From Hydractinia symbiolongicarpus (Eukaryota; Cnidaria; Hydrozoa; Anthoathecata; Hydractiniidae): 64,000 nt of DNA. Location: positions 8,742,001-8,806,000 of the forward strand of contig NC_079886.1 of assembly GCF_029227915.1 (NCBI RefSeq). The letters are read 5' to 3'. Below the pieces are notes generated by a model, which had not been told where the DNA came from, made no database searches, and was given only the letters and a program-made list of their open reading frames with translations. Made by a program: the position numbers and the translations under genes. Of this stretch, positions 895 through 47,131 are shown one piece after another. The first letter of the stretch is position 1. Each line of letters begins with the position of its first letter.

Positions 895-3800
895 ATGCTG
901 ACTTTCATGATGGCGGCCAGAGCGGACGCAAGTTGGCTCTTGACAAAGATTCTTGTTGTTTTAATTATTGGTATACTTGTAAAGAAGCCACTGTTCACAA
1001 ATAGTGAAGTTTCAACACATCTAACACGAGTGGATGCTGCAATTTCTTTTGGTTGTTTATGGCAGTATCAAAAGAGCAGGAATTTGGCTTACGTAAAACG
1101 CAGTTTGTTTTTACCGCTACTTTTATTGATAGCAGGAGATATTGAAGCGTGCCCGGGACCACAAGCCGATGGAAATGTTGGTAGATTAACAGATTTTACT
1201 TTCAGAAAAGGAGTAAAGTTATTTCACCAAAACTGTAGAGGTTTGACAAATTGTTTACCAAATCTTTCGGCTTTATTTTCAGGAGAGAAAAACTCAATTT
1301 TATCTCTCTCAGAGTCACATATTGTACACGAAAGCGATAACTTGTTTTGTATTCCGGGGTTCCAGTTTGTAGAAAATAGACGAAAAACTGGCCTAGGAGG
1401 AGGTGTTGCTATATACGAAACGACGAGAAGACCTTGAATGTAAATTTTTAGAAAACATGTGAATCGAAATATGCCCGGAAAAAGCGAAACATTATCTAAT
1501 TTGCTGTATGTACCGACCCCCGGCCAATTCACTTCACTTACACAAAAAGTGGAAAGAATATTTTCAATACACGCTTGAGACCGTTAACGACCTATCGCTA
1601 GAAGTTATCATTATGGGCGACTTTAATGTTAACTATAAAAATAAAAATGATCATTCAGAATTTAAAGAGCTAATGGCTGTCCAGGGATTTAAACAGTTGG
1701 TAACAGCGGCTACGAGAACAACAAAAGAATCAAGCACCCTTATAGATTTGATTAATACAAACAATCACTCGCTAATTCGTTCCACAAAAGTTATACGCTT
1801 GAGTATTGGCGATCACGATTGCGTCGCTTGCGTTCGAAGACACACTGGTCAAAAACTTCCACCAAAAGTAATTACTTGTCGTAATTATACCAACTACAAC
1901 CATGATGATTTTTTAAAAGAATTAAATAAACAAAATTGGAAGCATTTGTACACATTGACTGATGTAATTAGTGCGTGGAGTTATTTTAAAAATATTTTGT
2001 TAACCGTAATCGATAAACACGCGCCGCTCATACAAAAGAGAGTGAAGGGAGGCAAGTGCCCGTGGTTAGGTACGGAGGTTAGGAGACTTATGTCTCGGAG
2101 AGATACTGTCTTGAGGAAGGCACGAAAATCAGGCAACAGTGCTGATTGGCGTCTTTACAAAAACCTAAAGAACCGATGCAATAACATGATAAAAAAAAGA
2201 AGAGAACAGAAAGAAGAACAAAAACAGAACAAAAACCTCCTTATCGAGAACAAGAGTAACCCAAGAAAATTTTGGAAAATTATTAAAAGCATTTTTCCAA
2301 CAAAAAGGAAGTCGGTAAACAATGTCACATGTACATCGGCTGCAGAAAACTTAACAAAAGCTGGTAGTTTTTGTTCATATTTTTCCACATGTGCAAATAA
2401 ACTTAAATCTCTTGCACTGCCAATAAAGGAATTTATATGGAGTAAGCCAAGTCAAGTGAATGAAAATACAAATTCTGTTTTTGCGTTCACTTACGTTTCA
2501 AATGTATTTGTTGAAAGTCAGCTGAAGAAGTTGCGGCGCAAGAAAGCTACAGGTTATGACCAAATGCCATCAGGACTTTTGAAAGACGGAGCCACAGCGT
2601 TATCAAGTCCCTTATCGTTCATCATCAACTTGTCGCTAAAAACAGCCACCATACCAACTGAATGGAAGTTGGCGAAAGTCATCCCACTCCAAGGTGGGAA
2701 AATGGACGAAATGTCAAACTATCGACCGAGCTCCATCCCACCGGTCATATCTAAAATAATGGAGAGAGCTGTTTATGTTCAACTTGTGAACTATCTTGAA
2801 GAAAATGAAATTTCTAACACCCAACCAATACGGATACAGGAAGAAACGATCTACCGAATTAGCTACACTCTATCTGACAGAAGAAATCAGGAAGGAGATA
2901 GACAAAGGGAATTTAACAGATGCGCTTTACGTTGACCTGTCGAAGGCTTTCGATACTTTAAGCCACTCCATTCTCCTGTCAAAACTAAGAAGTTATGGAG
3001 TCAAAGGTTTGTCACTAAACTGGTTCGCAGACTACTTGTTTAACCGCACCCAGATTTGTGAAGTAAATGGTCAATGGTCTAAGCCCAACCCCATTGTTTG
3101 TGGTGTACCACAGGGGTCTATTCTTGGACCCTGTCTCTTTTTAATCTACTTCAATGATTTCGAAAATTGTTTGAAACATTCTAGAGTACTAAACTTTGCG
3201 GACGATACTGTGTTATACATTGGACGAAAAACAAGCCAGCAACTTGAGATCGCTTTCAACGCTGAATTGAAAAACGTAGACAGGTACTTCATTGAAAACG
3301 AACTTGTATTAAATCTGAAGGCTGGAAAAACCGAATCGATGATATTCGGCACTCGCAAAAATTTGAAGAAAAACGGATCAACCTTGAACTTGGAAATCAA
3401 CGGAAAGCTAATTAACGCAACCACCGAATATCGATATCTTGGGACTGTTCTCGACCAGACTTTGTCAATGAACCATCACTTTATAAGTCTTTACAAGAAA
3501 ATATCTGCCAAGCTTCGTTTACTACTCTCATTGAAATCCAACTTAACGAAAAATGCCATCACTAAAATATATGTCGGAATGCTGCTGCCAGCGCTTCTTT
3601 ACTGCTGCACTACAAACCTGAATCTTACCAACGGCCAGCAAAATAAGCTTCAATCGCTTGATAGAAGAATTGCGAAGGTGACAGAGAAACGTCAAGTACC
3701 AATTATGAATGAAATAAAGAAACATGCTGTCATGCTCGTCAGAAAATGCTTGGAAAAAGCAGTGTGTAGCAATTTTGAAGATTTCTTTGAGATAAGATCG

Positions 3801-3983
3801 CACAGTAGAAACACCCGAAACAACAATTACTTACTGACAATACCTAGAGTGAGACTTGAAGTAAATAGATCTGGTTTTAAATTTATGGGATCAAAGATTT
3901 ATAATGACTTGCCAATCGAAATTCGAAAATCGGATACTTTACCAAGTTTCGTAAGAAAAACTAAAAGCTATTTTAACCTGTAA
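895..3983 (+). pseudogene. LINE ORF2: AP endonuclease plus reverse transcriptase, frameshifted
   Basis: The coding region is spread over all three frames: 895-1437, 1508 to about 2810, and about 2796-3983. The first segment has a hydrophobic stretch, a 2A-like GDIEACPGP, then endonuclease start motifs (QNCRGL, LSESH). The second has YRPP, GDFNVN and GDHD endonuclease motifs and the start of the RT (KKATGYDQMPSG, NYRPSSIPP). The third has VDLSKAFDT, GVPQGSILGP and the catalytic FADD box, and ends with the IRKS...FVRKTKSYF tail seen in CR1-type elements. Breaks near 1437-1508 and 2796-2815 prevent a full protein, so this copy is inactive. Confidence 0.88.
1129..1161 (+). other. 2A-like motif, non-canonical
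   Basis: Residues LLIAGDIEACPGP lie just before the endonuclease domain. The canonical 2A ribosome-skipping core is D-V/I-E-x-N-P-G-P. Here the Asn is Cys, so skipping is probably weak or lost. Several invertebrate CR1-like LINEs are known to carry 2A sequences at this position. Confidence 0.55.
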
Positions 3984-4134
3984 TAAATTATTTTATGCCT
4001 TATTGTAAAGCTAGTATTTTTAACTCATGTTTTTAACTGTTATATAATAATGTTTTATAATTTTATTTTTCACAGGACATATATTAAGAGCAGTTTTTTA
4101 AAAACTGAATTATATCCATCCTGTATAAACATTC

Positions 4135-4664
<530 letters not shown>

Positions 4665-7600
4665 ATGGCCAGACCTCGTAAGAGAAAGTCGATGAGGAAT
4701 GAAGGGGAGGAAGAAGAAGAAGCCGACTCTAGCAGTGAAGGTGATAACAGAAACGGCGCAAATGCGCCTGAAACATTTCCTGGCATTTCTTTCTGGATCG
4801 CGTGCGACTTGCCAAACTGTACCTTAAGTCAATTTGAAACAAATTTGTCGAAGTCTTTTATGCAAGCCGGGTTGAATTTAACAACGTGCAATGCTATACA
4901 GACAAGAGGTAAATACTTGAACCTTTTAGTACTTGAAATACTGTCAATGTTTTTCGAATATTTTACGCCACATTTGATATTTGTAGGCAAAACCAGTGCA
5001 TTGCAAGCATTCTCAGGATCGTTATACCAAGTCTTGAAAGACCACAATAGGGAAGAAGCAAAACGGATAGTTGAGATATCCCATCGCACAATGATTAGGA
5101 GTGCAGCTAGAGATGAAGGTGTTCAACTTGACCACGTTGCTGTAATGGAAAGCGAACAGTACTCGATGAAACCCTGTCAGTTAATTCTAACAAAAAATAT
5201 TGATAAAGAGGTATATCAAGATGTAATTCGTGGTTTATCCGAAATCAGATTTACATCGCTTGATTTAAAAGTAATTGATAAATCGGAAGGTAAGTTGCCA
5301 CGAACAAATTTACTTACTTCTCCAATAATAAGACTAAGTTTTTTGTAGAAGTTAAAACATGTTTTTACATTGTTACACGCATAGGCACAGAAGTAACTAT
5401 TCCCGTTAAGCCAACTAACAAACTTTGTCAATCCGTGGATATAGTTCGAAGGATGATGGAGAGGAATAGCTTTGGACTGTGCAATGGAGGTGTATACAAA
5501 AAAATAGGAGAAAGCAGATACACATACGTTTACTGTTGTTCGGTGAAAAGCTATCTCTATCGCTCGTTGAAAAACAAAGCAATCGCCAACGAAATTACGC
5601 CAAATTTACGAGAGTTGGTATTTTTGCTGTCGGACGGCGAGTGTCAAATAATTGATCATATAACTCTGGATTACAATTACATTGAATGCTTGCCAAATGG
5701 AGTTTGTTATAACATCGCCAAAAAATGTTTCGATATCAAGCCAAATTTAAAGGGATCTCCCCGAGCATTCGTACGGTACTTTCATCGAGAGGGAAAAAAT
5801 CCCGAACCAAAGCCATTTATAGAAGGTAATTGTTTTTACTTTTCTTTTAACGCGTTAAGAAAATGTGTTTTTTTTTCTTTTAACGCGTTGTAACATATCA
5901 AGGTGGTAGTTGTAACGTGTTGTAACGTATTGTAACTTGTTGTAACGCATTGTCAGTAAAAAAATGTTGGCTCTTTTTCTTTTAACACGTTGTAACATAT
6001 CAAGGTGGCAGTTGTAACGTGATGTAACGTATTGTAACTTGTTGTAACGCATTGTCAGTGAAGAAAATGTTTTTTTTTTATCTTTTAACGCGTTGTAACA
6101 TATCAAGGTGGTAGTTGTAACGTGTTGTAACGTATTGTAACTTGTTGTAACGCATTGTCAGTGAAGAAAATGTGTTTTTTTTCTTTTAACGCGTTGTAAC
6201 ATATCAAGGTGGTAGTTGTAACGTGTTGTAACGTATTGTAACTTGTTGTAACGCATTGTCAGTGAAGAAAATGTTTTTTTTTTCTTTTAACGCGTTGTAA
6301 CATATCAAGGTGGTAGTTGTAACGTGTTGCAACGTATTGTAACTTGTTGTAACGCATTGTCAGTGAAGAAAATGTTTTTTTTTATCTTTTAACGCGTTGT
6401 AACATATCAAGGTGGTAGTTGGAACGTGTTGTAACGTATTGTAACTTGTTGTAACGCATTGTCAGTGAAGAAAATGTGTTTTTTTTCTTTTAACGCGTTG
6501 TAACATATCAAGGTGGTAGTTGTAACGTGTTGTAACGTATTGTAACTTGTTGTAACGCATTGTCAGTGAAGAAAATGTGTTTTTTTATCTTTTAACGCGT
6601 TGTAACATATCAAGGTGGTAGTTGTAACGTGTTGTAACGTATTGTAACTTGTTGTAACGCATTGTCAGTGAAGAAAATGTGTTTTTTTTCTTTTAACGCG
6701 TTGTAACATATCAAGGTGATAGTTGTAACGTGTTGTAACGTATTGTAACTTGTTGTAACGCATTGTCAGTGAAGAAAATGTTTTTTTTTTCTTTTAACGC
6801 GTTGTAACATATCAAGGTGGTAGTTGTAACGTGTTGTAACGTATTGTAACTTGTTGTAACGCATTTTCAGTGAAAAAAATGTTTTTTTTTATCTTTTAAC
6901 GCGTTGTAACATATCAAGGTGGTAGTTGTAACGTGTTGTAACGTATTGTAACTTGTTGTAACGCATTGTCAGTGAAGAAAATGTTTTTTTTTATCTTTTA
7001 ACGCGTTGTAACATATCAAGGTGGTAGTTGTAACGTGTTGTAACGTATTGTAACTTGTTGTAACGCATTGTCAGTGAAGAAAATGTGTTTTTTTTCTTTT
7101 AACGCGTTTTAACATATCAAGGTGGTAGTTGTAACGTGTTGTAACGTATTGTAACTTGTTGTAACGCATTGTCAGTGAAGAAAATGTTTTTTTTTTATCT
7201 TTTAACGCGTTGTAACATATCAAGGTGGTAGTTGTAACGTGTTGTAACGTATTGTAACTTGTTGTAACGCATTGTCAGTGAAGAAAATGTGTTTTTTTTA
7301 TCTTTTAACACGTTGTAACATATCAAGGTGGTAGTTGTAACGTGTTGTAACGTATTGTAACTTGTTGTAACGTAGTTCTAAAAAAGGTGCAGTGAACTAC
7401 ATTTGTAGGTGTCGAAAATAGCTTCCCAGATAGAAATGTGCAGTTGCGTTTTTATCAAAAATGGTACCAAATTTTGCTCGCCGGTCAGTATCCCATGAAA
7501 GAAAAGAAATTGTTGCTAGTAGGTCCTCCTGATAGTGGAAATCAAGTTGGTTTGCTCCATTTCAAGGTAATTAAATAAAGTTCGTGAAAACTTCTGACTT

Positions 7601-9037
7601 TTAGACGGCACTTACTGACATACATTTGTCCTTTTAGGCATTATTCCAGAAATGTACATTGCTGACGTGGTTCGGGATGGTTGATTCTCAGGCCACCTGA
7701 TAAATAGAAATACACAAGTCGTATTTATGGATGAATGGACTAGCGACAGTCTATGTTGTGAAGATGCAAAAAGAATATTGCAAGGTAAGTCGATGTCGAT
7801 GCAGTACATGAACATTTACTTTGAATAAAATGTGGCAATGTGCAGATGGGATACCACTTTCTCTTATAGGCGGCTTGGTTATGATCCCGCAAAAACACAA
7901 AAAACCGGCCCGTTTTCAATACAATTCGGGTTTTTTTATAACAACTAATATAATGCCGGACTTCGGAAATGGTGTAGATGGTGAGGCTATCCTGCGTCGT
8001 CTTGAAGTTTTCGAAACTAAGACACTTCGAGTGAAGGACAATAGCATAACAAGTAAGTATCTCATGAGAATAAATGATAACAATGGTGTAAATCAATATG
8101 CATAAAAATAAGTAATGACTTTTTTCCCGTAGAGTGGATGAGAATGCACTGCATGGAAATATTTGTGTACGTTGCCAGCCAGTTGAAAGACATCTCGCTT
8201 TTCACCAGCGAAACCAATGTTGCGAAGAAAAATCAAGTAGGCGCTGTGTACAACGACGTTGATTGCGATCCGTCGGTCTTCTTGGACGAAGAGCAAACAT
8301 TGGAAGCATCTAGCAGTGGTCTAAGCACACGAGTTCAGATTGAGAATGCAGTTCCGCAAGAGGCTATCGACTATGCCATTATTGCGGCCGACGATAGGGA
8401 TGGCATTTTGTACCATGCGCTTAACTTTGATCATGAACTGTTTGACATAGAAAACAAGTTACACAGTGCTGAATATATGCGCAAAATGTACGAGATAGCC
8501 GCTGGGGCATGGGAGGAAATCTGCCCATTAATTAATAACGATAAGACCTTGGTAGCTTTCAAACGCCGTAAAAGGATCAACTGGCAGGGTAGTGACACGT
8601 TCTACGACACGTGGTTGCTTGCTACAAACTCCTGCCGCGATTGCTTCCCGACGAAAGAAATGAAGGAGCTCTACCCTGATTGGGCACAACTAATTGAGCA
8701 AGACGAAGACGAAGGAGAAGGTAGTAGCCACGACCGCGAAGAGAACGAGGAAGAAGAAGAGGAAACAAACGAAGAGGAGGAAGGTCATAGGGAAGAAGAA
8801 GAAACAGAAGAACATGAAATCAATGCTCAGTCGACAAAACTTGTTTCCACTGTTAAGCAAGAATATATGCCGTTTTGTCCAGCAAATAACAGTACTGCTT
8901 TTATAGACCTCGTGTCAGATGATGAAAGTGTTCCTGAAATTTCTTCAGTAAAATTAGAGCTATTTTCCGCAGATAATTCAACCACTTCTCTCGATTGTGA
9001 TGTTATCTGCATTAGTTCGGACGAAGAAGACAATTAA
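4665..9037 (+). pseudogene. SF3 helicase-like replication protein, seven exons, two lesions
   Basis: Exons inferred from GT-AG sites and phase: 4665-4908, 4987-5289, 5385-5825, 7409-7566, 7638-7784, 7870-8052 and 8133-9037 (2381 nt, one base short of a whole frame). The start has a basic patch and an acidic serine run. Motifs expected of a superfamily-3 ATPase come in order: GPPDSG (Walker A, 7522-7539), VVFMDEW (Walker B, 7721-7738) and SGFFITTN (motif C, 7926-7949). SF3 helicases drive replication of small DNA viruses and Rep-type elements. The tail is very acidic and ends VICISSDEEDN. Two lesions lie in the core: a one-base loss just after the Walker A glycine (about 7540-7543), and an in-frame TGA at 7682-7684. 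No HUH nickase motif was found in the N-terminal third. The exact family is unrecognised. Confidence 0.7.
5835..7375 (+). repeat. Minisatellite 1: about 15 units of 101-103 bp
   Basis: It lies wholly inside intron 3 of the helicase gene. Each unit carries five copies of TTGTAAC; in the first full unit they start at 5888, 5910, 5920, 5930 and 5940 (spacings 22, 10, 10, 10). Anchors recur at about 5892, 5994, 6097, 6198, 6299, 6401, 6502, 6604, 6705, 6806, 6908, 7010, 7111, 7214 and 7317. A T-rich linker varies slightly in length between units. The units are nearly identical, so the array is young or homogenised. Confidence 0.95.
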
Positions 9038-9124
9038 AAAAAAACTTTTTTGCGTTTTCCTTCCCTCATATCCCACCACATACTCCTTTTCTAAAGTGAC
9101 ATGCGAAAAGCGGTTTTCTCTACA
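9038..9124. other. 3' flank of helicase gene
   Basis: A short A-run and T/C-rich sequence follow the helicase stop codon and lead into minisatellite 2. No AATAAA is seen here, so the 3' UTR may run into the array. Confidence 0.4.
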
Positions 9125-10190
9125 GAAATAGGTTACAAAGCGTTACAACGTGTTACAAGGCGTTACAATCAGCATGTCCATGCGTTACAAGGCGTAACAA
9201 GAATCACTCTAGCCTTTTCCAAAAATTTCACAGTCATTTTTTCATGGAAATAGGTTACAAAGCGTTACAACGTGTTACAAGGCGTTACAATCAGCATGTC
9301 CATGCGTTACAAGGCGTTACAAGAATCACTCTAGCCATTTCCAAAAATTTCACAGTCATTTTTTCATGGAAATAGGTTACAAAGCGTTACAACGTGTTAC
9401 AAGGCGTTACAATCAGCATGTCCATGCGTTACAAGGCGTTACAAGAATCACTGTAGCCTTTTCCAAAAATTTCACAGTGATTTTTTCATGGAAATAGGTT
9501 ACAAAGCGTTACAACGTGTTACAAGGCGTTACAATCAGCATGTCCATGCGTTACAAGGCGTTACAAGAATCACTGTAGCCTTTTCCAAAAATTTCACAGT
9601 CATTTTTTCATGGAAATAGGTTACAAAGCGTTACAACGTGTTACAAGGCGTTACAATCAGCATGTCCATGCGTTACAAGGCGTTACAAGAATCACTCTAG
9701 CCATTTCCAAAAATTTCACAGCCATTTTTTCATGGAAATAGGTTACAAAGCGTTACAACGTGTTACAAGGCGTTACAATCAGCATGTCCATGCGTTACAA
9801 GGCGTTACAAGAATCACTCTAGCCATTTCCAAAAATTTCACAGTCATTTTTTCATGGAAATAGGTTACAAAGCGTTGCAACGTGTTACAAGGCGTTACAA
9901 TCAGCATGTCCATGCGTTACAAGGCGTTACAAGAATCACTCTAGCCATTTCCAAAAATTTCACAGTCATTTTTTCATGGAAATAGGTTACAAAGCGTTAC
10001 AACGTGTTACAAGGCGTTACAATCAGCATGTCCATGCGTTACAAGGCGTTACAAGAATCACTCTAGCCATTTCCAAAAATTTCACAGTCATTTTTTCATG
10101 GAAATAGGTTACAAAGCGTTACAACGTGTTACAAGGCGTTACAATCAGCATGTCCAAGCGTTACAAGGCGTTACAAGAATCACTTTAGTC
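9125..10190 (-). repeat. Minisatellite 2: nine units of exactly 122 bp
   Basis: Anchors fall at 9131, 9253, 9375, 9497, 9619, 9741, 9863, 9985 and 10,107. Each unit has six copies of GTTACAA, the reverse complement of the array 1 heptamer; in the first unit they start at 9132, 9142, 9152, 9162, 9184 and 9194 (the last is a variant). Read on the minus strand the spacings are 10, 22, 10, 10, 10, containing the array 1 pattern. The 15-nt spacer inside the 22-bp step differs in sequence from array 1 and holds a small palindrome (GCATG-TC-CATGC). Confidence 0.95.
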
Positions 10191-10318
10191 ATTTTAAGTA
10201 GGAATGGGGATGAGTGTGCGTTTAATGAATGTTGCATTTGCGCCATTATTTGCATACTTAAAGGCTTACAGCGTGTAAGTTTCACCTAAATTGTGTGGAC
10301 GCTTATGTGTACGCTAAA

Positions 10319-10681
10319 ATGGTGAATGAAGAGGCAGTTGTGGTAAACGTTTCGGATAACGAATGCTCAGCATCTAAGGAGGGTTTACCGTTCTCACATT
10401 CCTGTTCAACGCTGGCAATTTCCGTGGAAAAAAATATTGTTTGCCTATCAGATGATGAAGTTTTCATAACTATACCGATAGCGGCTTTGAAGGGAGAACC
10501 AAGTTTTTGCGAACCGCCTTCACACACGAGGGTACTTAATACACCAGATTATTGGCCAAATCGTAAGAGGAAAAAAGCCTTTATGTGTACGCCGGTTTTG
10601 ACTGTAACAAAGTTAAAAGACTATTTGAATATTCTGGTTTTCAAAAATCTTTGTAAATTTACAAAGTTATTTTTATTATAA
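10319..10681 (+). CDS. Small element protein with SUMO-interaction-like motifs
   Basis: A 120-codon ORF from the ATG at 10,319; the frame is open upstream to 10,295 without an earlier ATG. Two patches look like SUMO-interacting motifs, a hydrophobic core followed by acidic or serine residues: VVVNVSDNE near the N-terminus and NIVCLSDDE in the middle. A basic stretch RKRKKA follows further on and could be a nuclear signal. The helicase C-terminus has the same kind of motif. It stops 14 bp before the convergent recombinase gene ends. I do not recognise a family. It could be a real small protein or a remnant exon; the shared motif favours a real one. Confidence 0.45.
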   Translation: MVNEEAVVVNVSDNECSASKEGLPFSHSCSTLAISVEKNIVCLSDDEVFITIPIAALKGEPSFCEPPSHTRVLNTPDYWPNRKRKKAFMCTPVLTVTKLKDYLNILVFKNLCKFTKLFLL

Positions 10682-10694
10682 ATACAATTTAAAC

Positions 10695-12340
10695 TTATAT
10701 AAATTTTTTTGTCTTCGCTCTAACCGCCAATGTACTAGCTTTACGGCTACAATGAAAGGAGTAGTTAGGATCTGCGAGAATGGAAGTCCATTTTGCATTG
10801 CCATATTTTTGTAGCCCAGCTTGTAAAAACTTGTCCTCCATGGCACTAAAACTAACTTTTTTCTGTCTCGTTTGAACATGTGTTTCGTGTTCCAAAGTAC
10901 TTCCAGACGTTTTCACATTTTTGGTGTTACTATTGATTTCGCTTACAGTTAAAGTACACGTTGTTTGATCTCGTAATTTATCCATACATAACCTGGCTTT
11001 TGCAGCTATATTGCGCGATTCAGTCTTCTGGTAATGAACTTTAGCTACCTGCGACGTGTGTTTTTGATCTTGAGAAAGAATTGCTTGTTCTTTTGTTTCT
11101 AAGTGTGCAACACTTTCGGTTCGATGATTTGCCTATATCGTGTAGGATTTATATACTTACCAATTGCTTGATAAACAATTCTACCGAATACGTCCGAAAT
11201 ACGCGTCAACTGCTTACCATTTCGACACACTAGTAGATAATCGTTGGTGGGGTTCAATCTTCGTCGTACATTGTCAATGTATTCGTTTATTAGTGTGAGT
11301 ACATCTATGGAAAAATAAAGAGAGTCAAATCCGTATTTCTCCGCAGTTTTAAAGACATTCTGATCTATAAAACCATCCTCTTTCACGCCTTTAATCATTG
11401 TTACTGTAAGAGTTTGATACGTCATGGGTCTTGAAGCCTTCACCATTAAAAATAATACAGCTACTATGAAGGAAGTCGAAAATGATAAATCGTGTGCTGC
11501 GACACATGCACTTGCGTTTTTAGCATTTAACACAAGTTGTTTATATTTTTCACTATGGTATGGTATCACCTTTTGTAAATCATATAGTGTCGCCCAACAG
11601 TCTATACTGTTTAGATATTCAACACTTAAGATACACTTCCATTCAGCTTTCATTTTACGAAGGAGGAATTTCTTAACACGGTGCAAATAAATCTCTGCAG
11701 CAACAAATACCGACAAATTTTTTTCAGTCGTACCTGTGCTTCGTCTGTAATCAAGCATGTGCCCAATAGCATTCATGTAGCCAATTATTCCTGAGAAGCC
11801 AACCTTCCATTGGTCTCTCAAAAAATCTACGAAATCAGAAAGCATATTAATAGAGCCAACACAGTAGTCGATAACAGGGAATGGTACTTCCCATACCGAA
11901 GGAGAATCCTCGCAGCAATATTTGGCATACTTTAAAACTTTACAAGTTATTTGATCGGCCTGAGAATGATCTTTACCACCACCACCTGGACTTTTTAACC
12001 ATGTCCTAAATGCAACCGCCAAATTACATGTTTTAGCAAAAGACGGCATTGAAAATGTGCAGGCGCGCTTTCTTTGGGGATCTTTTATGCGATTTTTCGT
12101 ACTGAAGTGGGGAAGTACTTCGTCGATATTCGGTCTTTTATCGAAATAATAAAACCATCCATGACGGTTATAGACATGTTTTCTACACCCTCTTTTACTT
12201 CCATACGACTCGCTGTCACAATCAGCCACAGGACAACAAAAGCGGTTATCTTTATCAGGCATTAACTTAAGCCTTTTCGATCTCATTGAGGCTCCCAATG
12301 CCTCTTTCCACGCAGGCTTTTGCAAGACTCGTTTTGTCAT
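10695..12340 (-). pseudogene. Tyrosine recombinase with zinc finger and C-terminal Myb-like domain
   Basis: The start is the ATG at 12,340; an acceptor (TTTCTAG) ends at 12,361 and a donor lies at 12,495, so a 5' UTR intron is likely. The N-terminus has a C2H2-type finger (FCCPVADC...CRKHVYNRH). Recombinase features follow: an Arg box (KASRPMTYQTL), then YINPTRYRQIIE with the second Arg at about 11,139, and QKHTSQVAKVHYQK whose Tyr codon (11,031-11,033) is the likely nucleophile. After this comes a Myb/SANT-like domain (FSAMEDKFLQAGLQKYGNAKW). The frame changes by one base between about 11,125 and 11,101: the first frame stops at 11,099, before the tyrosine, and the second runs to 10,695. Such enzymes integrate circular DNA; Cryptons and DIRS elements use relatives. 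Confidence 0.72.
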
Positions 12341-12496
12341 TCCGATTTCTTTAAAGTTCTCTAGAAACAAAATTTATAGAAAGTTTATAACAATATTAGT
12401 TTTTAACAAAGCATAGAAAGTAGGATAAAAAAAAGAATTCATTTGAATAAAAAAAGAATCCTATTTACTATAAATTTAAAGTTTGAACAACTTACC

Positions 12497-12983
12497 TTAT
12501 ACTTTACTTCGTATACAAAGTATTAGTTGAGAAACTTCTCATTAAAACAATTCCTTTTTATAATGAAGGACGCTCTCCATAGCAGAGTTAAGGTAGCAGC
12601 GAAAACGGAATTATTTCAAGTGGCACAATATAAATTAGACTGCAGACTATTCATAATTAAATAACTATTCCTCAAGATAATCATTTCGCATATATTATCG
12701 TTATGATATATAAAAGAATTCAACGGAACAAATAGAGTGGAACGATATATACCGTCACATAAATTCCATCAAATTCCCTATGGGAACGACACGTTCTTGT
12801 CTTGTGAGTAACAATAGAACAATACATTCCGCTTTTATAACAATGTTTTAATAAGTTGTTAAAGAACACCAAGTTCCTTAAAAATGGTTCTTTTTTAAAA
12901 AATTGGAACATGTAAAGTATTTAATGTGTTTAGGGTGTAAGATAATCGCACATAGAATCACGGACCATTATAATTTCATACGC

Positions 12984-12984
<1 letters not shown>
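12497..12984. other. Right end of the element, no gene seen
   Basis: AT-rich DNA upstream of the recombinase gene, presumably holding its promoter and first noncoding exon. Short ORFs here show no known motif. It runs into the right (AAT)n tract. Confidence 0.4.
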
Positions 12985-13885
<901 letters not shown>

Positions 13886-18143: not shown

Positions 18144-19646
18144 TTATAAAAGTTTCGTCGATGTAATTTCATACGCTATCACGGCCGAATGGAAATGAAA
18201 AAATATTTCGAAAACGTTAGCGATCGATGCCATTTTCTCATAGTCCTCACCATAGAAGTCGAGAGTGGGATATATATGACGGTAAGAAGTATCATCCTTT
18301 AAGTAAACAAAATTGTCAATTGCCCAATATGTCAGGTTTTGGATAAGAGTAAAGTACAAAAACTGTTTAGACCACGTGCCGGCAATTTTTCTTTTTAAAT
18401 GCAGATATTGAATCAAAATAAAGACTTGAAATATTGCAAAACATAGTTCAAGTGAAGCTGTGAGAAGTGTACACCAGGCTATGTTTAATATTTCTCTTCT
18501 ATGAATGGAGTGTCCAGCAGAATACAAAATAGCAAAATTTTCTACAAGGATTCCCACCACAGATATATACAGCAAAACATCATTCGTATGAACAGCCATT
18601 TTAATCTCGTCGTTGCGGATGGAATACTGCATTAACGCAAAGATGACTACCAAAATAATCGATGTAACTATCGACACAGAATAATACACCAGTTCTGTGT
18701 TCTGTACATATCTGAGTACAACACACCCAGTAGATGCAGTTGTAAGTACGCCAAAGAAAATTCCAAACGTTATACCAGGCTGAGAGCGAAAAAATAAGTT
18801 ACAGTCATTTGGTGCGTGATTTTGTTCATCGTCTTTATCATGTTCGGTTCCATTCGCATCTCTGATTATTACAATGTTGTACATGATTATTGCTATGATT
18901 CCTGAGGAGATTATATTGAATTCAGATACAAAAGAGACTAAAGATTCCCTGCATTCAATACTAAATTCATAAATTTCACCTTGACATTTGGAGTCAGTTG
19001 TTATACTGACATTAGTGATGTTAGTTTTATTCCCTGGACTGGATATTAAACGCAGTTCCATAACAGTGTTGGCAATATACGACGAAAAATTGGTTCCTAA
19101 AAAGGAATACCAAGAGAAGACCAGCAGCCAGTGGTATCTCATTGTTTTATTGATGAATGCATGTAAACAAAGCATCTGAAATATTGCAAACAAGAGTGTG
19201 GCAGAAGGATAAATTACTTTATAGTCCTTCAACCCGCAATCAATAATACCAGCTATCTGAAACATACTGTATAACAGTGTCCCTGTACCAAAAATGTATA
19301 GACCAGCTAACAAATGAGTGTTCGAATGATAGCTTTCACCTTCTTCACAAATATCTTCTCCATTTAGGTTTTGCCAAACAAAGTAGAAAATCATCAACAC
19401 AATGGAAAGAATCATATAGACACCTGTTACACATAAACCAATCTCTAGAGATAATTCTTCTACTGAATATATCACAACTTGAACTCCAATTGCAACACAA
19501 ACCTGCAGAACAGGCCACAAAATTCCCAAGATTTTGATTTTTCCAGCATGTCTGGGTCGGTTATTTTCCACTGGAGAAATAGCGTCATTTTCCTCTGAAG
19601 GTATTACATTGTCATTTTCCTCTTCGGAAATAAGGTCTGCCTCCAT
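18144..19646 (-). CDS. Otopetrin-family proton channel, intronless
   Basis: 500 residues in one exon. An acidic cytosolic N-terminus (about 35 residues) is followed by about 12 hydrophobic segments, near residues 39-60, 70-90, 112-131, 145-165, 172-195, 236-261, 290-311, 320-340, 355-376, 388-412, 428-447 and 472-493. Family-like blocks include SEFNIISSGIIAI (otopetrins have a related ...EFSLI..GILY segment), GITFGIFFGVL before the second half, NLTYWAIDNF, and FHFHSAVIAYEI near the C-terminus. N-glycosylation-type sites cluster at residues 206-213 in a predicted loop. Otopetrins are proton-selective plasma-membrane channels used in acid sensing and otolith formation. Identification rests on motif recall; another 12-span family is possible. 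Confidence 0.68.
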   Translation of the reverse strand: MEADLISEEENDNVIPSEENDAISPVENNRPRHAGKIKILGILWPVLQVCVAIGVQVVIYSVEELSLEIGLCVTGVYMILSIVLMIFYFVWQNLNGEDICEEGESYHSNTHLLAGLYIFGTGTLLYSMFQIAGIIDCGLKDYKVIYPSATLLFAIFQMLCLHAFINKTMRYHWLLVFSWYSFLGTNFSSYIANTVMELRLISSPGNKTNITNVSITTDSKCQGEIYEFSIECRESLVSFVSEFNIISSGIIAIIMYNIVIIRDANGTEHDKDDEQNHAPNDCNLFFRSQPGITFGIFFGVLTTASTGCVVLRYVQNTELVYYSVSIVTSIILVVIFALMQYSIRNDEIKMAVHTNDVLLYISVVGILVENFAILYSAGHSIHRREILNIAWCTLLTASLELCFAIFQVFILIQYLHLKRKIAGTWSKQFLYFTLIQNLTYWAIDNFVYLKDDTSYRHIYPTLDFYGEDYEKMASIANVFEIFFHFHSAVIAYEITSTKLL

Positions 19647-30492: not shown

Positions 30493-31294
30493 CCTTCTTC
30501 TTCTCTTCTTCTTCTTCTTCTTCTTCTTCTTCTTCTTCTTCTTCTTCTCTTCTTCTTCTTCTTCTTCTTTCTTCTTCTTCTTCTTCTTCTTCTTTCTTCT
30601 TCTTCTCTTCTTCTTCTTCTTCTTCTTCTTCTTCTCTTCTTCTTCTTCTTCTTCTTCTTCTTCTTCTTCTTCTTCTTCTTCTTCTTCTTCTTCTTCTTCT
30701 CTTCTTCTTCTTCTTCTTCTTCTTCTTCTTCTTCTTCTCTCTTTCTTCTTCTTCCTTCTTCTTCTTCTTCTTCTTCTTCTTCTTCTTCTTCTTCTTCTTC
30801 TTCTTCTTCTTCTTCTTCTTCTTCTTCTTCTTCTTCTTCTTCTTCTTCTTCTTCTTCTTCTTCTTCTTCTTCTTCTTCTTCTCTTCTTCTTCTTCTTCTT
30901 CCTTCTTCTTCTTCTTCTTCTTCTTCTTCTTCTTCTTCTTCTTTCTTCTTCTTCTCTCTTCTTTCTTCTTCTTCTTCTTCTTCTTCTTCTTCTTCTTCTT
31001 CTTCTTCTTCTTCTTCTTTCTTCTTCTTCTTCTTCTCTTCTTCTTCTTCTTCTCTTCTTCTTCTTCTCTCTTCTTCTTCTTCTTTTTCTTTTCTTTTTCT
31101 TTTTCTTTTTCTTTTTCTTTTTCTTTTTCTTTTTCTTTTTCTTTTTCTTTTTCTTTTTTCTTTTCTTTTTCTTTTTCTTTTTCTTTTTCTTTTTCTTTTT
31201 CTTTTTCTTTTTCTTTTTCTTTTTCTTTTTCTTTTTCTTTTTCTTTTTCTTTTTCTTTTTCTTTTTCTTCTTCTTTTTCTTTTTCTTCTTCTTC
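30493..31294. repeat. Giant pyrimidine tract: (CTT)n then (CTTTTT)n
   Basis: About 800 bp of strictly C/T on the plus strand: (CTT)n with frequent slips to about 31,083, then a regular (CTTTTT)n block to about 31,265, then mixed. It has mirror-repeat and triplex-forming potential. Copy number is unlikely to be exact. Confidence 0.97.

Positions 31295-35691: not shown

Positions 35692-47131
<11,440 letters not shown>

Follow-up and report, generated by a model that had tools for sequence, protein, structure and literature searches.

A mobile element of about 8.6 kb in Hydractinia symbiolongicarpus carries two tandem arrays that differ in unit length and linkers and share, on opposite strands, one six-site ladder of the heptamer TTGTAAC. 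Because the sites and their spacing are kept while the linkers differ, and because the sites are in helical phase, the ladder heptamers are well supported, as far as sequence goes, as protein sites on one face of the helix. We consider it possible, though somewhat short of probable, that the arrays are initiator-binding platforms, for replication origin or episome maintenance, used by a protein that the element itself encodes. The analysis concerned a single copy of the element in a window of 64,000 nt (the whole stretch of DNA analysed; assembly GCF_029227915.1, contig NC_079886.1, positions 8,742,001-8,806,000, forward strand), with the following features in window coordinates.

4135..4392, + strand: left (ATA)n tract, probably a LINE tail and the probable insertion target
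4393..12986, no strand assigned: mobile element, about 8.6 kb, bracketed by two (ATA)n tracts; exact ends putative
4449..9037, + strand: SF3-type helicase gene, seven predicted exons (4449-4908, 4987-5289, 5385-5825, 7409-7566, 7638-7784, 7870-8052, 8133-9037), from GT-AG borders and frames
5857..7373, + strand: array 1, 15 units of 101-103 bp, a six-site ladder per unit with TTTTAAC as first site
9125..10194, - strand: array 2, 9 units of 122 bp, a six-site TTGTAAC ladder per unit
10319..10681, + strand: small ORF, 120 aa, with a SUMO-interaction-like motif
10698..12340, - strand: zinc-finger, probable tyrosine recombinase with a TRF-like Myb tail; finger and recombinase read from motifs
12350..12986, no strand assigned: right end of the element, upstream of the recombinase start, with five GGAAC/GTTCC words
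12987..13320, + strand (as for the left tract): right (ATA)n tract

Two opposed arrays share one six-site ladder

An earlier note on this DNA had described two arrays built on TTGTAAC on opposite strands. This was borne out by TRF (array 1: 5857-7372, period 101, 14.9 copies, 96% matches; array 2: 9125-10194, period 122, 8.8 copies, 98% matches) and by exact counts, with 71 copies on the + strand of array 1 and 52 on the - strand of array 2; the estimate of about 75 plus 54 sites was slightly high for exact copies. The rest of the window holds nine exact copies, five on the + strand and four on the - strand. Neighbouring exact copies were spaced by 10 bp (n = 40) or 22 bp (n = 13) in array 1 and by 10 bp (n = 33) or 22 bp (n = 9) in array 2, the remaining spacings in both being unit-to-unit steps or steps across a mutated site. 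The proposed 22-10-10-10 spacing was recovered in all units, and the individual site coordinates were correct, the site at 9194 having one mismatch. The five sites described for the array 1 ladder are present, but a sixth had been overlooked: TTTTAAC, with one mismatch, lies 10 bp ahead of the first-described site. The ladder common to both arrays has offsets 0-10-32-42-52-62 and occurs in 15/15 units of array 1 and 9/9 units of array 2; nowhere else in the window was it found with up to 2 mismatches in total allowed.

Comparison of the unit consensuses agreed with the earlier observation that spacing is conserved without spacer sequence. Site letters are identical at 41 of 42 positions, whereas linker letters agree at 9 of 27, which is chance level (permutation P 0.19). 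Local alignment of the consensuses scored 120, against a mean of 24 (s.d. 3.9, maximum 40) in 300 shuffles, and similarity beyond the ladders was at chance level (P 0.39). The linker differences are mostly transitions (purine/pyrimidine agreement 20/27, P 0.015). Within the arrays, the ladders carry four substitutions in sites and four in linkers (array 1) or two in sites and one in linkers (array 2).

Array 1 lies wholly within helicase intron 3 (5826-7408) and fills it, and array 2 is located after the helicase stop and before the small ORF; together they occupy the only large interior non-coding stretches of the element. Between the left end and array 1 lie 1.46 kb, and between array 2 and the right end 2.79 kb, so neither adjoins an element end as sub-terminal transposase-site arrays do. 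Among the functions offered earlier (origin iterons, a partition site or a transpososome platform), the transpososome platform is the least favoured, because of these distances and the position of array 1 in a helicase intron. A coding role of the arrays was rejected, the unit lengths not being held to a multiple of three, although stretches without a stop reach 100 codons in array 1 and 94 codons in array 2.

Helical phasing of the sites

Among gaps of 17-31 bp, 22 bp gave the top phase coherence at 10.5 bp per turn, with a vector strength of 0.96 per ladder; the sites are in helical phase, as in an iteron-type origin. Across whole arrays, coherence at 10.5 bp per turn was low (0.17 in array 1, 0.10 in array 2). 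A peak common to both arrays was located at 10.16 bp (0.84 in array 1, 0.91 in array 2, 0.92 for the ladder), at which the units amount to 10 and 12 whole turns, respectively. In this post hoc comparison about 6% of random unit-length pairs (80-140 bp) did equally well, and the array-wide phasing is therefore suggestive only. The earlier proposal of protein sites on one helix face is, on sequence grounds, well supported, with phasing within the ladder and, at 10.16 bp, array-wide.

The element and its genes

The element probably sits inserted in the tail of a LINE, whose EN and RT domains are found to its left in ORFs 1508-2935 and 2805-3983, respectively; a DDE_1 fragment is located on its right side. 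Since the element ends lie in a microsatellite, a short target repeat is not visible. Comparison of 4385-4700 with 12600-13000 gave a top inverted match of 28 gapped columns (score 20) and a top direct match of 8 bp, itself (ATA)n. The five GGAAC/GTTCC words at the right end compare with 0.72 expected (P 9e-4, post hoc), and a sixth is located at the left end, at 4411. No Rfam family was detected in 4300-13000 at gathering thresholds.

The gene content comprises the seven-exon SF3-type helicase and the small protein on the + strand and the probable tyrosine recombinase on the - strand, with both the helicase and the recombinase genes broken in this copy. On a circle, these two genes would point away from the junction and meet near 10.69 kb, a compact, replicon-like layout.

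In the helicase gene, a frameshift within exon 4 breaks Walker A and exon 5 holds one in-frame stop, with motifs B and C remaining readable. A 118-aa helicase piece matched TIGR01613 (primase_Cterm, P4-family, SF3) with E 1.1e-4 and 21.2 bits against a cut-off of 108.7. Helicase pieces also matched DUF5906 (E 0.0085) and Parvo_NS1 (E 0.046) in Pfam, both under curated cut-offs, and two phage primase PHROGs (E 0.032 and 0.056); the C-terminal pieces had no match by sequence among solved structures. For the N-terminal 445-aa piece, no Pfam family was found at E up to 5 and no HUH motif was seen by eye, and a single-sequence AlphaFold model was unusable (pLDDT 40; the stretch included 26 residues from a probable intron). 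Matches of the third exon to PIF2 and LDLRAD1_C (E 0.04-0.24) were taken as chance, as was one to the leucine-rich-repeat protein 5a5c (E 2.6e-6 for the whole sequence, over 21 residues, with no stretch passing alone).

The recombinase is read from ORF 11099-12340 and, in another frame, 11120-10698, a frameshift near 11120 dividing the catalytic region. On both sides of it, residues were read by eye that fit R..K..(H)xxR..H..Y, the catalytic signature of tyrosine recombinases. Searches of Pfam (E up to 10), PHROGs, PDB sequences and NCBIfam gave no match to a recombinase family, and the single-sequence AlphaFold model was unusable (pLDDT 34). The tail, judged by sequence similarity, is a TRF-type Myb domain: its top PDB match was TRF2 (E 0.0019), and TRF1/TRF2 accounted for 12 of the 15 PDB matches listed at E up to 10, ten of them with E <0.01. 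Matches of the recombinase to the malate synthase N-domain (0.2), CsaA (0.023) and Med26_C (0.32) were taken as chance. The small ORF matched no Pfam family at E up to 1.

Occurrence of the heptamer and relatives of the element elsewhere

Three TTGTAAC at 10 bp were found in 36 viral stretches, of which two belong to the same contig, compared with 9 and 1 stretches for two control heptamers of equal composition; TTGTAAC at 22-10 steps gave 12 viral matches. Several of the viral contexts are near-copies of one another, and many are simple decamer repeats. A tblastn search with the element's proteins against 57 viral loci gave nothing better than E 0.03, and the viral matches were treated as unrelated to the element. 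They warn, against the initiator reading, that TTGTAAC can come to be spaced at 10 and 22 bp in other settings too. The 22-10-10-10 pattern was absent from the prokaryote genomes searched. No confirmed relative was found for the recombinase ORF in viral contigs and prokaryote genomes, or for the last and third helicase exons in viral contigs.

A possible initiator platform

If the arrays do bind an initiator, each 69-bp ladder would present its six heptamers on one helix face, probably occupied by a co-operative row of protomers, and the likeliest binder would be a replication initiator encoded by the element, namely the N-terminal region of its SF3-type helicase. The recombinase would cut the element out as a circle; the initiator would load onto the ladders and open up the unit at its T- or A-rich segment; the helicase would then unwind, host polymerases would copy the circle, and the circle would reinsert into a microsatellite. 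With the ladder multiplied 15-fold and 9-fold, avidity would rise or an episome-holding role be added; the family of repeats in Epstein-Barr virus oriP offers a parallel. Units that span 10 and 12 whole turns, taking 10.16 bp per turn, may keep the sites of an array co-facial, for example on nucleosomes, whose DNA repeat is near 10.2 bp. The circle, the identity of the binder and the origin function are what we infer here; the ladders, their phasing, the gene order, the helicase motifs and the flanking microsatellites were observed.

One array lies inside the helicase gene and the other next to it, an arrangement that speaks for the initiator reading, as do the presence of the ladder in all 24 units, its kept sites amid differing linkers, the phasing, the SF3 and phage primase matches and the gene layout on a circle. 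Several observations count against it: no origin-binding or HUH domain was recognised in the helicase N-terminus, and the SF3 matches all fall below curated cut-offs; two other element proteins could bind the heptamers instead; array 1 is intronic; the copy is broken, with nothing indicating that its arrays still act; and no second copy came to light. With 144 ladder positions, the two arrays are also larger than a usual origin.

A fuller proposal, which we regard as unlikely on present evidence, is that of a microsatellite-targeting tyrosine-recombinase circle that is episomal through its own SF3 initiator, the two opposed arrays of co-facial ladders serving as origin and chromosome tether. 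If true, this would be a new kind of animal mobile element, a transposon with plasmid-like replication and maintenance and with one ladder array in an intron of its initiator gene. We know of no account of the route by which eukaryotic tyrosine-recombinase DNA transposons increase in copy number, and an element with a recombinase, an SF3 helicase and two phased arrays offers a direct test of replication on the excised circle. The ladders, with conserved sites and free linkers, are a ready-made bait for identifying the binding protein.

Alternative explanations of the arrays

The main rival, which we consider rather unlikely, is that the recombinase recognises the heptamers through its TRF-like Myb tail and that the arrays are accessory (arm-type), tethering or self-silencing sites and no origin. 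The TAAC within TTGTAAC is common to the telomere C-strand TAACCC and the Myb site YAACNG, and the tail resembles TRF1/TRF2 Myb domains at E about 0.002 and matches Pfam Myb_DNA-binding at E 0.0043, below the family cut-off. TRF, however, recognises a GGG core, which the heptamer does not have; the arrays are far from the junction, separated by at least about 1.5 kb from the left end and by at least 2.8 kb from the right one; and the Myb domain may serve targeting instead. As far as the cited portion of the source goes, C2H2 tyrosine recombinases of some crustacean endogenous viruses insert into (TAACC)n (PMC10871703), in keeping with this rival.

It is improbable that the ladders form a transcriptional platform of intronic and 3' operators or enhancers bound by the small protein or a host factor. 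The arrays do flank the 3' helicase exons, and TTGTAAC at 10-22-10 occurs in seven viral contigs that showed no relation to the element, in two of which (L056 and L057) the heptamers lie, by eye, directly ahead of an ATG, like a control region. Yet no array is upstream of a gene start, save array 2 before the small ORF, and more than 120 sites are far more than an operator holds.

About equally improbable are functionless, neutral minisatellites, in which one old seed was duplicated and inverted, then homogenised through slippage and conversion. Animal genomes commonly contain minisatellites, the linkers bear weak signs of common descent, and the few within-array substitutions strike sites and linkers alike, with no sign of selection there; neutral drift, however, is not expected to hold 41 of 42 site letters and the spacing while linkers drop to 9/27.

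Pairing of the mirror arrays within the helicase transcript, where intron 3 would anneal to RNA further downstream and yield dsRNA or altered splicing, is very unlikely: the predicted duplex of one unit each (-64.5 kcal/mol, against -25.8 +/- 4.4 in 300 shuffles) is expected of any mirror heptamer pair, the 16/27 linker positions pairable with G-U allowed (P 0.045) are matched by an equally marginal opposite-strand wobble control (13/27, P 0.039), Watson-Crick linker matches number 9/27, and the transition-rich linker differences fit old common descent equally well.

Comparison with known systems

Among the titles and abstract openings listed, drawn largely from open literature, no animal transposon pairing a tyrosine recombinase with an SF3 helicase was found. 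Cryptons are likewise DNA elements moved by a tyrosine recombinase (here a probable one), and no terminal inverted repeats were established here. In the portion of PMC3212892 cited, fungal CryptonF proteins have the C-terminal DNA-binding domain GCR1_C and animal Cryptons are described without a C-terminal domain, whereas the recombinase of the element has a Myb tail. The words helicase, Myb, tandem repeat and microsatellite are absent from the main text of that paper (PMC3212892).

Endogenous nimaviruses with telomere-associated recombinases, from the part of their description drawn on here, likewise combine a C2H2 finger on the recombinase, simple-repeat insertion and animal hosts (PMC10871703). 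According to the same part, they are dsDNA viruses of large size with recombinases directed at (TAACC)n or 28S rDNA, and those in (AT/TA)n carry a DDE transposase instead of a recombinase (PMC10871703); the present element is 8.6 kb long and sits in (ATA)n. Tyrosine recombinase and SF3 helicase genes both occur among Polinton-like viruses, and a circular donor has been proposed for those bearing recombinases, as stated in the cited portion of PMC12220804. These viruses have, by that portion, capsid genes and polymerase-helicase fusions (PMC12220804), whereas no capsid gene was recognised in the element: a Pfam scan of five element ORFs of at least 100 aa and of the helicase and recombinase pieces, leaving out + strand ORFs 4050-4442 and 12924-13400 (running into (ATA)n) and other shorter exons, gave no capsid protein or packaging ATPase.

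Plasmid iterons, ParR-parC and the EBV oriP repeats all provide many short phased sites for a replicon-encoded protein. The present arrays depart from such iteron and episome arrays in two ways: they form a mirror-oriented pair in which a single six-site ladder recurs amid unrelated linkers and in units of unrelated length, and one of them is located inside an intron of the helicase gene.

Two arrays on opposite strands share a six-site ladder

The two tandem arrays claimed in the earlier note were confirmed, and both lie in an 8.6-kb element bounded by (ATA)n tracts on the same strand, arranged as follows.

4135-4392, same strand as the right tract: left (ATA)n tract
5826-7408: intron 3 of the helicase gene, enclosing the whole of array 1, which closely precedes the Walker A exon
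5857-7372, sites on plus strand: array 1, 15 units of 101-103 bp
9125-10194, sites on minus strand: array 2, 9 units of 122 bp, downstream of the helicase stop (9037) and ahead of a 120-aa ORF (10319-10681)
12340 to about 10698, minus strand: putative recombinase gene, with a C2H2-like finger, putative tyrosine-recombinase residues and a Myb tail
12987-13320, same strand as the left tract: right (ATA)n tract

Exact TTGTAAC copies (sites) number 71 on the plus strand of array 1 and 52 on the minus strand of array 2, with 9 in the remainder of the 64-kb window. The previously described 22-10-10-10 bp spacing is indeed common to both arrays but was drawn too short: the shared ladder has six sites at offsets 0-10-32-42-52-62, counting in array 1 one mismatched copy 10 bp before the first site. 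It occurs in 15/15 and 9/9 units, and nowhere in the window outside the arrays, allowing up to two mismatches.

Local alignment of the units scored 120, with at most 40 reached in 300 shuffles. Between the unit consensuses, 41/42 site letters but only 9/27 linker letters are identical, the latter within the permutation range (mean 6.6, P 0.19); likeness of the remaining unit sequence did not exceed shuffles (P 0.39). Linker differences are mostly transitions (purine/pyrimidine agreement 20/27, P 0.015, a post hoc test), a weak hint that both arrays may derive from a single old seed, duplicated and inverted. Under such an origin, the linkers would have changed while the sites stayed. Units of the same array differ by few substitutions, which hit sites as well as linkers, so present-day selection is neither supported nor excluded.

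Helical phase of the sites

With a helical repeat of 10.5 bp per turn, the ladder's six sites span angles from -34 to +17 degrees relative to the first, a vector strength of 0.96. Among gaps of 17-31 bp scanned at this repeat alone, coherence was highest at 22 bp; the odd 22-bp step therefore fits a phase-restoring role. Over entire arrays, 10.5 bp gives little coherence (0.17 for array 1, 0.10 for array 2). A finer period scan gave one peak common to both, at 10.16 bp (0.84 and 0.91); a single ladder still reaches 0.92 at that period, and the units then span 10 and 12 whole turns, respectively. Since about 6% of random length pairs equal this common phase, array-wide co-phasing is suggestive only. 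Nucleosomal DNA repeats at about 10.2 bp, close to the 10.16-bp peak, and the sites of an array may thus face the same side when the DNA is wrapped.

Genes of the element and their state

Seven exons are predicted for the helicase gene; their borders follow GT-AG, their frames agree, and together they encode one protein. Its pieces matched SF3-type models weakly to moderately, always under the curated cut-off (P4-family primase C-terminus, E 1.1e-4; DUF5906, 0.0085; Parvo_NS1, 0.046). No recombinase profile matched the recombinase protein, and its putative tyrosine recombinase identity thus rests on motif reading; the C2H2-like finger was identified by eye. In the helicase gene, the reading frame shifts within Walker A and exon 5 holds a single in-frame stop; the recombinase gene is frameshifted in the catalytic region. 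Barring sequencing errors behind some lesions, this copy is probably inactive, in which case the conserved architecture would be an inheritance from active ancestors.

A pattern scan run without a chance control returned IDLVSDDE and VICISSDE in the helicase tail (8903, 9002) and IVCLSDDE in the small ORF (10436), which we take to be candidate SUMO-interaction-like motifs.

Possible roles of the arrays

The reading that we favour, tentatively, is that the arrays serve as platforms bound by an initiator which the element itself encodes. Were the element excised as a circle, the helicase and recombinase genes would point away from each other at the junction and meet near 10.69 kb, a layout resembling that of a replicon. 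Binding of the heptamers by the recombinase's Myb tail, which is closest to TRF1/TRF2 (E about 0.002), is a less probable alternative; the transpososome platform suggested earlier is disfavoured by the arrays' distance from the element ends. Transcriptional control by the arrays appears unlikely, and slightly more so their being neutral repeats. Pairing of the arrays as RNA is the most improbable: predicted array-array pairing is strong (-64.5 vs -25.8 kcal/mol), but this follows from the mirrored heptamers, and linker pairing is marginal (P 0.045).

Genomic setting and relatives

Left of the element lies a LINE (reverse transcriptase, E 7.8e-23; endonuclease, E 1.5e-5, just below cut-off), whose downstream sequence reaches the left (ATA)n tract. 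To the right is a minus-strand DDE_1 transposase fragment (13320-13600, E 8.7e-6). On the other side of the LINE, at 1-895, a minus-strand reading without a Pfam match presumably continues this transposase. Three mobile elements thus seem to be nested, and in the simplest history a LINE ending in an (ATA)n tail entered the DDE_1 gene and the element then entered that tail. Five GGAAC/GTTCC words lie in the element's right end (12725-12905), where 0.72 would be expected (P 9e-4 in a post hoc test), and another lies at its left end (4411); they are possible candidate recombinase sites.

The element probably shares its recombinase type with Cryptons; according to PMC3212892, whose main text does not use the word helicase, animal Cryptons have no C-terminal domain. 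According to PMC10871703, endogenous nimaviruses use C2H2 tyrosine recombinases for insertion into telomere repeats, and members sitting in (AT/TA)n rely on a DDE transposase. Some Polinton-like viruses carry a tyrosine recombinase and some an SF3 helicase, but they have capsids (PMC12220804). The unusual part of the element is the array architecture. Scans of viral and prokaryote sequences, where an animal element would not be expected, revealed no relatives.

In seven viral contigs (L048, L049, L052, L054, L055, L056 and L057), TTGTAAC copies are spaced 10-22-10 bp; the spacer comes in two versions that do not differ in length. Steps of 10 bp are commoner in viral contigs for TTGTAAC (36 stretches) than for either of two control heptamers (9 and 1).

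Elsewhere in the window, the ORF at 18144-19646, for which a Pfam search gave no family, is presumably otopetrin-like, which fits the animal character of the genome; an 800-bp CTT-rich microsatellite occupies 30494-31294. Stray copies of TTGTAAC/GTTACAA, one at 43496 and one at 44407, lie near a diverged 20-bp tandem repeat (44222-44380, 68% matches).
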